NCBI RefSeq assembly: GCF_020164435.1
Contig: NZ_JAIUDQ010000002.1
Coordinates: 248,001 to 312,000 of the forward strand
DNA: 64,000 nt
From: Phyllobacterium lublinensis
Lineage (GTDB): Bacteria > Pseudomonadota > Alphaproteobacteria > Rhizobiales > Rhizobiaceae
Reading direction: 5' to 3'
Shown: in pieces, positions 28,801 to 41,965 of the stretch
Layout of the letters: every line of letters begins with the position of its first letter
How positions within the stretch are numbered: position 1 is the stretch's first letter
Translations under genes and position numbers: made by a program
The notes under the pieces: generated by a model
What the model was told of the DNA's origin: nothing
What the model saw: the letters and a program-made list of their open reading frames with translations, nothing else
Databases searched by the model: none

Positions 28801-30183
28801 TCACAGTCGCGGTGTCACCGTCATCGGCAGGCCCTTGTCGGGTTGCGTCGTCAGTTTCTGCACTGGCCATGGCCTGTAATCGCCGGCGGACTCGAACCGG
28901 AAGCGATGGAGCAGGATCGCCAGGGCAATGATCGCCTCCTGCAGGGCGAAGCTCGCGCCGATACAGACACGCGGTCCCGCACCGAAGGGTAGATACTGGA
29001 AGCGATCGATCCGGTCACGATTTTGCGGGTGAAAGCGCGAGGGCATGAACGCTTCCGGGTTTTCCCAGTAGAGCCTGTGCCGGTGGACAGTCCATGGCAT
29101 GACGAGGACAGCGGAGCCCTTCGGCAGGTGGAGATCTTTGTAGTGGTCGTCTTCAATCGGTTCGCGATTGATGGACGGCGCCGGCGGGTAGAGTCGCATC
29201 GCTTCCTCGAAGGCCGCGCGCGTGAGCGGCAGGGCATCGAGCCATTCATGTGGCGGTGGTACATCAGCCTGATCCATGAAGGCATCAATCTCTGCTTCGA
29301 CCAGGTCGCGCTCCCATGACGCCTTTGCAAGAAGGTAGAGGGTCCAGCCAAGCGCCCTGGCCGTCGTTTCATGGCCAGCGCCGATGAAGGTGATGATATT
29401 GTCTTCGATCTCGGCGCGCGACAGACCATCCGGCCCCTCAGCGCGCAGCAGAAGGGTCAGAAAATCATTGGGGACCTTCCCGCCTTCCTGGTCCATGCTA
29501 ACCTTGCGCATCTCGATCGTGTTGGCGACGATCTGCCGGAAGAAGGCGAGGGCGCGGCGGCCGCGAATTTGGGTAAAGCGCGGCAGCCAGCTCGGCGCGC
29601 CAAGGAGATCAAGCGGATCTACCCGGCCCATCGTCTCGAACAGCCGGTCGACTTCGTGGGAGAACTGGTCCGGATCGCCGGCGATTTCGCCGGAGAACAG
29701 CGTCTCGGCCAGAATGTCGTAGGTCAGCATGGTCATGTCACGGGACACATCGGTGGTACCCGTTAGCCCCTCATAACGATCGGCGAAACGGTCCGTCGTG
29801 CGCTTCATCACATTGGCGAAGCCATGAATATGGCGCGGCGTGAACACCGGCGCCATGGCCTTGCGCGAGCGGCGCCAGACCTCGCCCTCTGCGGTCAGCA
29901 GGCCGTCCCGGAGAATGGGGCGCAGGATGCGCTGGCGCACCGCCGCCATCCTGTAGTTCCTGGCATTGTCGACGAGCACGTGGCGGATGAGGCCGGGGTC
30001 GTTGGCAATGATGGTATGGGCGAACGACCAGTCGATGGAAACCCAGGGCTCGTTGTAGGAGGGCTCACCCCACAATTCGAGCGGGTTGCGATAAATGGTG
30101 CGGATCAACCGCAACGTGCCGACCGGACCGGTGCGAGGGATCGGTGCCGGGGGGACAAAAGCGGTTTGCGTGGTGGGTTCCAT
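28801..30183 (-). CDS. Cytochrome P450
   Basis: This 460-residue soluble P450 monooxygenase has all key motifs. The I-helix is FIGAGHETTARALGW, the K-helix ExxR is in AAFEEAMRLYP, and the haem loop FGAGPRVCIGASFA carries the axial cysteine. The substrate cannot be told from sequence; fatty acid or terpenoid oxidation are common for such relatives. No ferredoxin or reductase gene is adjacent. ATG 30183 follows GGAGGCG. The stop lies only about ten bases past a dispersed repeat copy. Confidence 0.94.
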   Translation of the reverse strand: MEPTTQTAFVPPAPIPRTGPVGTLRLIRTIYRNPLELWGEPSYNEPWVSIDWSFAHTIIANDPGLIRHVLVDNARNYRMAAVRQRILRPILRDGLLTAEGEVWRRSRKAMAPVFTPRHIHGFANVMKRTTDRFADRYEGLTGTTDVSRDMTMLTYDILAETLFSGEIAGDPDQFSHEVDRLFETMGRVDPLDLLGAPSWLPRFTQIRGRRALAFFRQIVANTIEMRKVSMDQEGGKVPNDFLTLLLRAEGPDGLSRAEIEDNIITFIGAGHETTARALGWTLYLLAKASWERDLVEAEIDAFMDQADVPPPHEWLDALPLTRAAFEEAMRLYPPAPSINREPIEDDHYKDLHLPKGSAVLVMPWTVHRHRLYWENPEAFMPSRFHPQNRDRIDRFQYLPFGAGPRVCIGASFALQEAIIALAILLHRFRFESAGDYRPWPVQKLTTQPDKGLPMTVTPRL

Positions 30184-30419
30184 TGAGCGCCTCCGCTGGG
30201 GCATGTGGGTATGAACGGCGGCAAAATCCACTCATCGGTCATGAAATGGCTCATGACCGCGATCGGCCCCTTACGACTAATTGCTGCCTTGACGCGGCAA
30301 TCCCGACGGATACTTTTCGGGCTCATTACACCCGGCAACCCGATTTCAGAATTATCAGGCCCTTTTTCTTAGGACATACCGGCAACATTTTGGATTGATA
30401 ATATAAGGATTTTCAGCAA

Positions 30420-32195
30420 ATGAATTTGCGCCTGTGCTGGCTATTGCTGGCCGTACTTCTTGCGTGATGTAGTGGCGAGTCGGATTCGGAGGAAACCTAT
30501 AGCGGGACGTTTCAACCGGCAATTGACAAACCCCAGCTACAAATACCCTACGCTGACAGCAGTACCCGTACACCGCTCTCCAGCGATCCCGACTATGGAC
30601 CTGAGGGCAGGTTTTACGCTCGCGAATTTGATGAAACGCCGAGGAGCAAATTGCAGACGATCTATCTGAATGGCAGTGCGCTGCAGTTCACGGTAGCGGC
30701 AGGACATATCAAGGCGAAAAGTTCCAGCCACGCCTTAGCAAGCAGGTTCGGGCAGGCTGCCATTTTCTATACGGCCTATACGCTTGCGAACCAGCCCAAG
30801 GGCACACGGCCGGTAACTTTCATTTTCAACGGCGGGCCTGGCGGCGCTTCGGCTGTGATGGACGTTGGTTTCCTTGGACCGAAGCGCTACGACTGGGATG
30901 CCCCAAGCTTCGCGCTGAAAGATAACCCCAATACCTTGCTCGACAAAACGGATCTCGTCTTCGTGGATCCAGTCGGAACCGGATATTCCAAGGCGATCTT
31001 TCCCAATCGAAACATTGATTTCTGGAGTGTCGATGAGGACGCAAGCGTGCTCACCGATTTCATCATTCGTTATATCAACGCCAATCAACGCCAGGATTCG
31101 CCCAAATATCTTTACGGCGTTTCGTACGGTGGTATTCGGGTTCCCATTATCGGACGGATGCTGCTTGAGGGCGGCACCACACAATATACTGAAAGGAAGG
31201 ATTCAAAGAATGTCCTTACCGGTCTGATCCTGAACTCGCCCATACTCGACTATGAAGCGGATTGCACAGTCAGTGATGCATCCTGTGGCGGTTCGCTTCC
31301 GACGTATGCGGCAGTTGCGGCCGACTGGGGAAGGTCCATCGAACGCCCCGGCAAGTCTGCCGATACAATTGTGGACGACATTGCGCCGTTCATCTCGACA
31401 TATAACCAACTTTACGTTTCGACATTCAGTGGTGTCGACCGTCGCATGGCCCCCGATAATTCAGAATGGCGAGCCTTCCTCAAGCAATCTGCGGCACAGC
31501 CCTTCCTGGATCGACTGTATCGCCTGACCGGCATCGGCAAGCTTTATGAGCCTGGAGACAGTGCCGCCAACAACCCGTGGATCGCCGATCCGAATATGGA
31601 CAGTATTGAATTTATAAAGGCTTTCGATGCAGGCAAAGATGATCGGGGCAGGGTGAGAAAGCTGTTGCTCGGCGACGGGCGCGCGACCATCGCACTTGAC
31701 GATACCGATTTCGCGATGGACAGAAGATCGGATTTTGATCCGCTTGCCAAACTCTATCAGGAGGAATTTATCGGGTACAATTCCGATTTGAATTATATGG
31801 CGAGTAATGGCGAAATCATCGACAAATGGGATTTCTGGTCGCATCATCCCGATGATCCGGTCGATCCCTCAAGATTGGTATCAAGCGTTCCCGATCTCTC
31901 CCAGAGCTTTACCCTCAAACCTGATTTGAAGGTTCTGGTCCAGCACGGCTATTATGATCTGAACACGCCCTTCTATCAGTCCAAACTTGTCCTTGACGCA
32001 TTGCCGGAACCGGCGAAAGTACCGGTCAAGCTATATGAGGCCGGACACGGTATTGGTCCTGAAAGTGGCCCAAAAGAAAAACTTCCCCTCTATGGTCTCG
32101 TGCTGAACGATCTCAAAATATTTTATGATCAGCCACTGCCCGCTATGGTGTTTACCGCCATGCGTTCGCCTCTTTCTGAAAGGGTACAGCCATGA
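30420..32195 (+). pseudogene. S10-family carboxypeptidase lipoprotein, interrupted by in-frame TGA
   Basis: From ATG 30420 one frame runs 592 codons, broken only by TGA at codon 16 (30465-30467). The frame opens MNLRLCWLLLAVLLA, then the TGA, then CSGESDSEE. A G in place of the first T (GGA, Gly) would give a perfect lipobox LLAGC. The rest is an intact S10 serine carboxypeptidase: oxyanion NGGPGGAS, Ser in YGVSYGG (codon 235), Asp in HGYYDLNTP, and His in EAGHGIGP. The next usable start, TTG 30651, would remove the signal and about 77 residues. It is coupled by ATGA to the EF-hand gene. Bases 31561-31620 are 29/60 G+C, lower than nearby genes. Confidence 0.82.
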
Positions 32196-32641
32196 AAGTT
32201 CGTTTGACCGCGGGAATGACAGCGCTGCTGCTTCTTGGGCAATGGCATGCGGTGCCAGCGATTGCTGCGGAATCCATGGCACGGTTCAAGTCTGAGCGGC
32301 AGTTGCAGGGGCTGTCATTGCGCGCTCTTGTTCCTCCATCCACACGCTCGAAACAAGGCGCGGTTCCCCTTACCCGGGAAAAGGTCGGTTCAGCTGTCGA
32401 CGCCCGTATTCGCGCGATGTATGACAGGGCAATTGACCCGGCAACAAGGCGGGTAACGGTGGCATCTGCCGAAAGAGCGGGCGTGGGTTACTTCGTCGGT
32501 CGGTTCGATGCGATGGATGATGATCGTGACGGCACCCTGACCTTTGGCGAATTCGAGGCTTACCTCGACGCTCAATCGCCAATTGGGAGGCCGGCCGGTA
32601 CGGCACACCCCGAGACCAGGGACATCCAGATCATCCAATAG
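32192..32641 (+). CDS. Secreted EF-hand protein
   Basis: The 149-residue protein has a signal peptide (hydrophobic stretch to AIAA, about residue 26). Near the C-terminus it has one canonical EF-hand loop, DDDRDGTLTFGE, with every calcium-ligand position filled. A helix before it (VGYFVGRFDAM) completes the fold. It should bind calcium in the periplasm or outside the cell. The start overlaps the S10 carboxypeptidase stop (ATGA), so the two were made together. A calcium-dependent partner or inhibitor role is possible but unproven. Confidence 0.82.
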   Translation: MKVRLTAGMTALLLLGQWHAVPAIAAESMARFKSERQLQGLSLRALVPPSTRSKQGAVPLTREKVGSAVDARIRAMYDRAIDPATRRVTVASAERAGVGYFVGRFDAMDDDRDGTLTFGEFEAYLDAQSPIGRPAGTAHPETRDIQIIQ

Positions 32642-35350
<2,709 letters not shown>

Positions 35351-39445: not shown

Positions 39446-40374
39446 CAGAAGCCATTTCAAAAGAACGCCCCGTTTCACGCCGCGAATGGCTGATGAGCGA
39501 CCGGCCGCAATCACGCATGCAGGCGAGGCTCGGCCGCGCCTATCTGGTGTGGAGCCGTTTTGCAAGCAACCGCCTTGCGGTCGTCGGTCTCTGCATCATC
39601 ATCGCGCTTCTGCTTGTGGCAATCTTTGCCGGCGTGCTTGCGCCACATTCCCCGGTGGCCGGTGACCTTCGCAATGCGCGCCTCTTGCCGCCGAGCAGCG
39701 AATACCTGCTTGGAACCGACGATCAGGGCCGTGATATCCTGTCGCGTCTGATCTACGGCTCGCGCCTGACGCTTTATGTCGTCATCCTCGTCGCCATTAT
39801 TGCTGCGCCGATCGGACTGCTTGTCGGTACGATCTCCGGCTATGCCGGTGGCTGGGTCGATTCGGTTCTCATGCGCATTACCGACATCTTCCTTGCGTTT
39901 CCCAAGCTTATTCTGGCGCTCGCCTTCGTCGCGGCGCTCGGGCCCGGAATTGAGAATGCAGTCATAGCCATCGCGATCACCTCATGGCCGCCCTATGCGC
40001 GCATTGCCCGTGCCGAAACCCTGACGGTGCGCAATTCGGATTACATTGCTGCGGTACGCCTGATGGGCGCCTCTCCCACGCGCATCGTGCTGCGCCATAT
40101 CATGCCACTGTGCCTGTCATCATTGATCGTGCGGGTAACGCTCGACATGGCGGGGATTATCCTGACCGCGGCAGGGCTGGGTTTCCTCGGCCTCGGTGCA
40201 CAACCGCCACTGCCCGAATGGGGTGCAATGATCGCTTCGGGACGCCGCTTCATCATGGACCAGTGGTGGGTGGCTGCTGCACCCGGTTTCGCCATCCTGA
40301 TCGTCAGCCTCGGGTTCAATCTCCTTGGTGACGGCCTGCGCGACGCCCTCGATCCGCGGGGCAACAACCAATGA
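39442..40374 (+). CDS. Peptide ABC transporter permease (DppC-like)
   Basis: This 310-residue second permease has an N-terminal OppC-type segment (RFASNRLAVVGLCIIIALLLV), then LLGTDDQGRDILSRLIYGSRLTL. The coupling loop is DYIAAVRLMGASPTRIVLRHIMPLC. With the preceding gene it forms the heterodimeric channel. The start overlaps the first permease, and the stop overlaps the first ATPase gene (ATGA in both cases). Confidence 0.94.
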   Translation: MTEAISKERPVSRREWLMSDRPQSRMQARLGRAYLVWSRFASNRLAVVGLCIIIALLLVAIFAGVLAPHSPVAGDLRNARLLPPSSEYLLGTDDQGRDILSRLIYGSRLTLYVVILVAIIAAPIGLLVGTISGYAGGWVDSVLMRITDIFLAFPKLILALAFVAALGPGIENAVIAIAITSWPPYARIARAETLTVRNSDYIAAVRLMGASPTRIVLRHIMPLCLSSLIVRVTLDMAGIILTAAGLGFLGLGAQPPLPEWGAMIASGRRFIMDQWWVAAAPGFAILIVSLGFNLLGDGLRDALDPRGNNQ

Positions 40375-41204
40375 GCACGATGCTTGATGTAGAAGACCTG
40401 CGAGTCCAGTTTCCGACGCGCACCGGTGTCGTTGACGCGGTACGCGGTGTATCGTTCACACTAGGCCGCGAGCGGCTCGGCATTGTCGGGGAATCAGGCT
40501 CCGGCAAATCGCAGACCGGTCGCGCGATCATGGGGCTGACCCCGCCCCATGCCAGGATCACGGCCAAGACACTGAACTTTGACGGGATCGATTTGCTCAC
40601 GGCTTCGGTCAAGGAAAGGCGGGCCCTGCGCGGCAATCGCATCGCCATGATCCTGCAGGATCCCAAATACTCGCTCAACCCGGTCATGAGCATCGGCAGG
40701 CAAATCGTCGAAACACTGCGGACGCACGAAAAAGTCAGCAAGGCCGAGGCACGCAGACGAGCGCTCGACATGCTTACCGCCGTGCAGATCCGCGATCCAG
40801 AGCGGGTGTACGACCTGCATCCGCACGAGGTTTCCGGCGGAATGGGCCAGCGCGCCATGATCGCAATGATGCTGATCACCGGACCCGAACTGCTGATCGC
40901 CGATGAGCCGACCTCGGCACTTGATGTCACTGTCCAGCTCGATGTCCTGCGGATACTCGATAATCTGGTACGGGACCGGGGCATGGGCCTGATCTTCATT
41001 TCCCACGACCTGCGGCTGGTGTCGTCATTCTGCGACAGGGTCATCGTCATGTATGCGGGCCGCATCGTCGAAGAGATCGCTGCCCGGGATCTGCATATGG
41101 CAAAGCATCCCTATACAAGAGGACTGCTGAACTGCATGCCTCAGATCGACAATGACCGGCACCCGCTGCCGGTCCTTGACCGCAAGCCGGAGTGGGCGGC
41201 ATGA
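40371..41204 (+). CDS. Peptide ABC transporter ATP-binding protein (DppD-like)
   Basis: This 277-residue ATPase has Walker A GESGSGKSQTGRAIM, signature VSGGMGQRAMIAMM (a variant of LSGGQ), Walker B LLIADEPTSALD and the switch histidine in ISHDLRLV. It is shorter than E. coli DppD because the C-terminal oligopeptide-transporter extension is largely absent. It overlaps both neighbours by four bases, and it probably pairs with the next ATPase as an asymmetric dimer. Confidence 0.93.
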   Translation: MSTMLDVEDLRVQFPTRTGVVDAVRGVSFTLGRERLGIVGESGSGKSQTGRAIMGLTPPHARITAKTLNFDGIDLLTASVKERRALRGNRIAMILQDPKYSLNPVMSIGRQIVETLRTHEKVSKAEARRRALDMLTAVQIRDPERVYDLHPHEVSGGMGQRAMIAMMLITGPELLIADEPTSALDVTVQLDVLRILDNLVRDRGMGLIFISHDLRLVSSFCDRVIVMYAGRIVEEIAARDLHMAKHPYTRGLLNCMPQIDNDRHPLPVLDRKPEWAA

Positions 41205-41965
41205 CGCATGCGTTGACAACTGAAAATCTTGAGGTGGTGTTCAACCGCTTTCGTGCGTTGCGGGCCGTCAGCATCGACGTTGCGCCTGGCGAGTCTTTCG
41301 GACTTGTTGGCGAGTCCGGTTCCGGGAAATCAACGCTTCTGCGCGCCGTGGCGGGGCTTGCGCCAGTGAGCGGCGGTACGATCACCGTCAATGGCAAGAC
41401 GCTTGGTTCGAAAAGGACCAAAGCATTCTATCGGGAAGTGCAGATGGTCTTCCAGGATCCGTACGGCTCCCTGCATCCGCGCCAGACAGTAGACCGGTTG
41501 CTTCTGGAGCCGTTGGCCGTTCATGGTTTTGGCGATATCGAGAAGCGCATCCTGCGTGCGCTCGATGAGGTGGGGCTCGGATCAAGCTTCCGTTTCCGCT
41601 ACTCGCATCAGCTCTCCGGCGGTCAGCGCCAACGCGTCGCCATCGCCCGCGCGCTGATACTCGAGCCATCGATCGTGCTCCTGGACGAGCCGACCTCGGC
41701 CCTTGATGCCTCGGTACAGGCGGAGGTGCTGAATTTGCTCGAGCAGATTCGCCGCGACCGCAAGCTGACGTTTCTCATGGTCAGTCACGATCTGGCTGTC
41801 ATAACCCATATGTGCGACCGGTTGATGGTGATGCAGAACGGAGCGGAGGTAGAGCGCCTGACGGCTGCCGAGCTCACCAAGCGCAAAGTGAGCCAGGATT
41901 ATACGCGTAACCTGCTCATCGCCAGCCAAGGGTTTGTACGGCCGGAGGTGCCGGCTGGGGGCTGA
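41201..41965 (+). CDS. Peptide ABC transporter ATP-binding protein (DppF-like)
   Basis: This 254-residue second ATPase has Walker A GESGSGKSTLLRAV, signature LSGGQRQRVAIARAL, Walker B IVLLDEPTSALD and switch histidine in VSHDLAVITH. Like its partner it lacks most of the C-terminal extension. ATG 41201 lies inside the ATGA overlap with the previous stop, so a GTG at 41192 is less likely. It closes the dipeptidase-transporter operon. Confidence 0.93.
   Translation: MTHALTTENLEVVFNRFRALRAVSIDVAPGESFGLVGESGSGKSTLLRAVAGLAPVSGGTITVNGKTLGSKRTKAFYREVQMVFQDPYGSLHPRQTVDRLLLEPLAVHGFGDIEKRILRALDEVGLGSSFRFRYSHQLSGGQRQRVAIARALILEPSIVLLDEPTSALDASVQAEVLNLLEQIRRDRKLTFLMVSHDLAVITHMCDRLMVMQNGAEVERLTAAELTKRKVSQDYTRNLLIASQGFVRPEVPAGG

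Follow-up and report, generated by a model that had tools for sequence, protein, structure and literature searches.

The stretch analysed here (the window, 64,000 nucleotides of DNA from Phyllobacterium lublinensis, a bacterium of soil and plants; positions 248001-312000 of contig C12) carries, between a cytochrome P450 gene on the reverse strand (28801-30231) and gyrB on the forward strand (32909-35350), a two-gene cassette read in the forward direction. Its first member is an interrupted gene for an S10 carboxypeptidase lipoprotein, probably a pseudogene (30420-32195); its second is a partner gene (32192-32641) whose start overlaps the S10 stop and whose 149-residue product has one EF-hand-like loop scoring below the Pfam cut-off. 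Translated, 30420-32195 is a single frame that begins MNLRLCWLLLAVLLA*CSGESD... and is interrupted once, by the TGA at 30465-30467; downstream of the TGA lie 575 sense codons and then the terminal stop, which is counted in the figure of 592 codons given in a preliminary description of this DNA. No second stop or frameshift was found in these 575 codons of the S10 body. The preliminary description of the frame as open except for this one codon is thereby confirmed, and two of its further statements hold as well, namely that the TGA occupies the residue position immediately preceding the lipobox cysteine (30468-30470) and that the next usable start is the TTG at 30651. This TTG is the first in-frame ATG, GTG or TTG past the TGA, has a purine-rich GAGGAG four bases upstream, and opens the longest remaining frame with such a start (30651-32195, forward strand, 514 amino acids), which lacks a signal peptide. 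Restart at the ATG that overlaps the stop (TGATG) was considered and rejected, since a TAG comes directly after it and the S10 frame cannot resume there.

The relatives support the ATG at 30420 as the true start and the lipobox as real: in all 14 same-locus orthologues from other Phyllobacterium species, the signal peptide closes with [SA]-C-[SD]-G; the lipobox cysteine is conserved in every one of them, and in the window copy alone the signal peptide and lipobox are broken by the TGA. The residue before this cysteine is serine in ten relatives (G009, G002, G008, G007, G010, G017, G005, G006, G004, and G014) and alanine in four (G003, G001, G013, and G011), with neither glycine nor a stop at that position in any of the 14. 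The early in-frame stop, which would mark a pseudogene, is therefore specific to the source genome among the genomes compared. It had been proposed that a glycine codon (GGA) was lost here, a proposal that the serine and alanine residues of the orthologues do not support. The preliminary description would also have been refuted by homologues that lack the stop and begin at another position: the orthologues do lack the stop, but their start lies at the same place.

The S10 identity of the encoded protein is indicated by a match of its body to Peptidase_S10 (PF00450) at 56.6 bits against a curated cut-off of 21.9 (E 3.8e-15), a match that spans only residues 96-266 of the body. The open frame cannot be attributed to chance, given that the body and an orthologue share 72% identity across 575 residues. 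When the window body is aligned with its relatives in 13 rows, 12 of the 14 being used and two visibly broken copies (G007 and G014) omitted, the GGPG motif (122-125), S219 within GVSYGG, D497, and H527 are invariant, as are C266 and C273; by analogy with the Ser-Asp-His triad of the S10 family, we take D497 and H527 to be its Asp and His. The profile built from the same rows has a single match among solved structures, yeast KEX1 (1ac5, E 3.6e-7), at profile positions 74-238, a link to a solved S10 enzyme that covers the serine region only, and the single S10 sequence gave no match to solved structures at E 0.001 and none to NCBIfam at 0.01. The earlier description of an S10 lipoprotein is supported. 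With its Pfam match, its 1ac5 profile match, and its GGPG and GxSYxG motifs, the window gene resembles KEX1 and the serine carboxypeptidases of PF00450, from which it differs in being a bacterial lipoprotein form, and an interrupted one. Judging from the signal peptide, lipobox, and motifs, the intact gene in the relatives would make a Sec-exported, lipid-anchored S10 hydrolase, and the invariant C266 and C273 suggest that it resides in an oxidising compartment.

The wider setting of the cassette was compared across 20 Phyllobacterium genomes (the source and 19 others, one per species) over 12 kb upstream of and across gyrB. The order P450, S10, EF-hand-like gene, gyrB is found in 15 of the 20, and all 15 genomes that carry the S10 gene have an EF match beside gyrB; in the remaining five (G012, G015, G016, G018, and G019) the P450 gene adjoins gyrB with no cassette there. 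One of these empty sites belongs to G019, the gyrB sister of the source genome (support 99/99), and permits an approximate delimitation of the cassette: positions 1-161 of the G019 intergene match the window up to 30244 and positions 155-304 match it from 32761, which leaves 30245-32760 as the extent missing from G019. In the S10 tree, the window copy groups with those of G007, G009, G002, and G008 (100/100), and in the gyrB tree G002 and G008 fall in a clade with G014, G010, and G018 (100/100); because the two groupings of G002 and G008 differ, exchange of the cassette between Phyllobacterium lineages is probable. The P450-gyrB interval (30232-30419 and 32642-32908 in the window) is the site at which the cassette's presence, absence, and probable exchange are seen. 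Its partner gene, intact in the window, is proposed to encode a small secreted protein alongside the S10 lipoprotein. Judged by a loose sequence pattern, an EF-hand-like loop occurs within about 400 bases downstream in 10 of the 15 gyrB-side S10 copies and in 8 of 13 other S10-like loci, some of which had little downstream sequence; such a pairing of a peptidase with a calcium-binding protein may constitute a genuine module in Phyllobacterium. S10-like genes are clustered and expanded in several genomes of the genus (G013:C1:1020920-1048622, G002:C21:2448-9518, and G006:C4 and C5), with up to 12 S10-like matching pieces per genome, and the source genome has only one other, on its contig C1.

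Twelve of the 15 gyrB-side S10 copies appear undamaged at the start and along the body, and the three broken copies are each broken differently. Besides the window copy with its TGA, that of G007 has its lipobox part and its S10 body in different frames, and the end of the S10 gene is there fused to the EF-hand-like gene in one 713-codon frame, in which the latter lacks its first 43 residues. A frame change is also present in an unrelated G007 gene, so part of the S10/EF lesion in that genome could be an assembly error. A fragment resembling the start of the P450 gene lies between the EF-hand-like gene and gyrB of G007. In G014, the S10 gene is interrupted at about residue 200 by an insertion of approximately 1 kb (G014:C5, L034:3488-4537) with 32-nt imperfect inverted ends and a 321-residue IS481-type transposase frame (PF13011, E 7.6e-19). 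Since some genomes have no such pair and two others carry it with lesions of other kinds, the S10 gene is, to all appearances, dispensable in the genus.

The G+C content of the S10 gene, at 52.4% against 58.8% for the window, is low, as the preliminary description had stated, but its suggestion that the DNA was acquired does not follow. The open frames of 12 of the 14 relatives, one of them represented by a C-terminal piece only, have 46.7-54.5% G+C, the other two having 56.1% and 60.8%. Low G+C is thus usual in the cassette's orthologues, which occupy the same locus in most of the genus, and is therefore no mark of recent acquisition by the source genome.

The history of the S10 body bears on the age of the stop. 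Pairwise dN/dS between the window copy and its nearest relatives, which averages over both lineages, is 0.199 with G007, 0.233 with G009, 0.197 with G002, and 0.224 with G008, ratios which say that most of the divergence arose under selection. Under neutrality along the whole terminal branch, one would expect 9.9-23.9 additional stops, given an assumed branch length of 0.2 or 0.38 per site together with transition bias, and none is observed; on these branch lengths, the neutral share of the terminal branch is bounded at approximately 0.13-0.30. Amino-acid changes unique to the window copy number 58 against 42 for G009 (p 0.13) and 51 against 55 for G007, with an S10 tree that lends no support to the outgroups used, and these counts give no clear sign of acceleration in the window copy. 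The dN/dS of around 0.2, taken with the lack of a second lesion, leads to the view that the stop is young.

The S10 gene of the window is thus quite likely a pseudogene of recent origin, an accessory gene for an S10-type serine carboxypeptidase lipoprotein that a recent nonsense mutation inactivated. A point change would have turned the codon before the lipobox cysteine into TGA, translation from the ATG at 30420 would then end after 15 residues, and no lipoprotein would be made; we infer that the TGA is genuine and that nothing functional is produced. It tells against this reading that the body looks as though it were still under selection, which fits a sequencing or assembly error equally well. 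Under that main rival, which we regard as rather unlikely, the genome itself would have a sense codon and the gene would be intact, as might be suspected of a lone lesion in an otherwise clean, selected frame. The source assembly (4.53 Mb in 44 contigs, 0.17% contaminated) is 88.01% complete, against 94-100% for the 19 congeners, and its quality may therefore be lower. The TGA is, however, a base reading and not an indel, and a crude screen of syntenic genes against the window does not clearly point to frequent errors, a result with which a single error is still compatible. In G019, 9 of 55 genes drew a stop or frame flag, as did 7 of 59 in G007. Most of those looked at came from reading frames that run further upstream than the likely start codon, or from the paralogues at 40371 and 41192 hitting each other; one G007 flag was the S10/EF locus itself, and at least two flags (G019_25537_26382 and G019_69885_70535) had no such explanation. 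The paralogues in question (40371-41204 and 41192-41965 in the window) are overlapping neighbours, each approximately 37% identical to the other's orthologues. Recent nonsense mutation and sequencing error had already been among the readings offered in the preliminary description, and they are supported as the leading ones.

The position of the stop raises a different objection to the pseudogene reading, in that a random mutation would by coincidence have struck one particular codon of 591. The objection is weakened by the fact that any early stop would have attracted notice, and chance is the best account of its exact position at the lipobox. That same position of the stop, with the frame preserved beyond it, is what would favour readthrough or recoding of the UGA (by selenocysteine, a suppressor tRNA, or a leaky stop), with export depending on it, as had been suggested earlier; we hold this to be exceedingly improbable. 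The window gene has in common with selenocysteine genes and programmed UGA readthrough genes an in-frame UGA with the frame open on both sides, but its UGA is conserved in none of the 14 orthologues, and neither selenocysteine machinery, a UGA-reading tRNA, nor a downstream hairpin was found in a genome that is 88% complete. In detail, the SelA candidate (23.6 bits with its neighbours, cut-off 22.8) is a SufS cysteine desulfurase, a second SelA match is a Cys/Met-metabolism enzyme, the best SelB match (188.2 bits, cut-off 242.25) is EF-Tu, and the best tRNA-Sec match (46.7 bits, gathering threshold 47) is a tRNA-Ser with a UGA anticodon. ARAGORN placed no UCA anticodon, as a suppressor tRNA would have, at any of 41 tRNA places, Rfam had no match in window positions 30000-33000, and the 60 nt after the UGA form no hairpin (z 1.08, with 173 of 200 shuffles folding at least as well). 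As the genome is incomplete, the absence of UGA-decoding machinery is not absolute; the lack of UGA conservation, which would count against readthrough whatever the completeness of the genome, stands by itself.

A shorter, unexported S10 protein made from the TTG at 30651 would likewise spare the enzyme, and the GAGGAG before this codon could permit such an internal start, which, with the intact partner gene, tells against simple inactivation. The 514-residue frame is open and retains all the S10 motifs. We nevertheless think an internal start very unlikely: the 12 unbroken orthologues keep the signal peptide and lipobox, the invariant cysteine pair suggests an exported product, and the TTG is not conserved, its codon specifying Val or Ile in the two nearest relatives. 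Very little credence is also given to a broader version, in which the stop would be a real, kept switch, low-level UGA readthrough or the internal TTG start would yield a rare or cytoplasmic enzyme instead of a surface lipoprotein peptidase, and the cassette would be repeatedly gained, swapped, broken, and lost beside gyrB. A genuine TGA that was nevertheless translated would represent a rare instance of a stop codon located at an export signal.

The S10 gene looks like an ordinary, recently disabled copy, not like a novel form of decoding. It shares with ordinary pseudogenes, the products of nonsense mutation, frameshift, or IS insertion, a single lineage-specific stop, and its sister loci are broken by frameshift or deletion and by the IS481-type insertion; it differs from them in that its stop coincides with the position just ahead of the lipobox cysteine. 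In the accessible part of the literature, no paper was found that joins Phyllobacterium with serine carboxypeptidase, or that combines at least three of peptidase S10, EF-hand, lipoprotein, and Rhizobiales. For annotation, "probable pseudogene" is the appropriate label for the S10 gene, and "readthrough candidate" is not. As a whole, the locus illustrates, on a small scale, frequent turnover of an accessory cassette that encodes an exported hydrolase, lacking from 5 of 20 genomes and broken in 3 of 15 copies.
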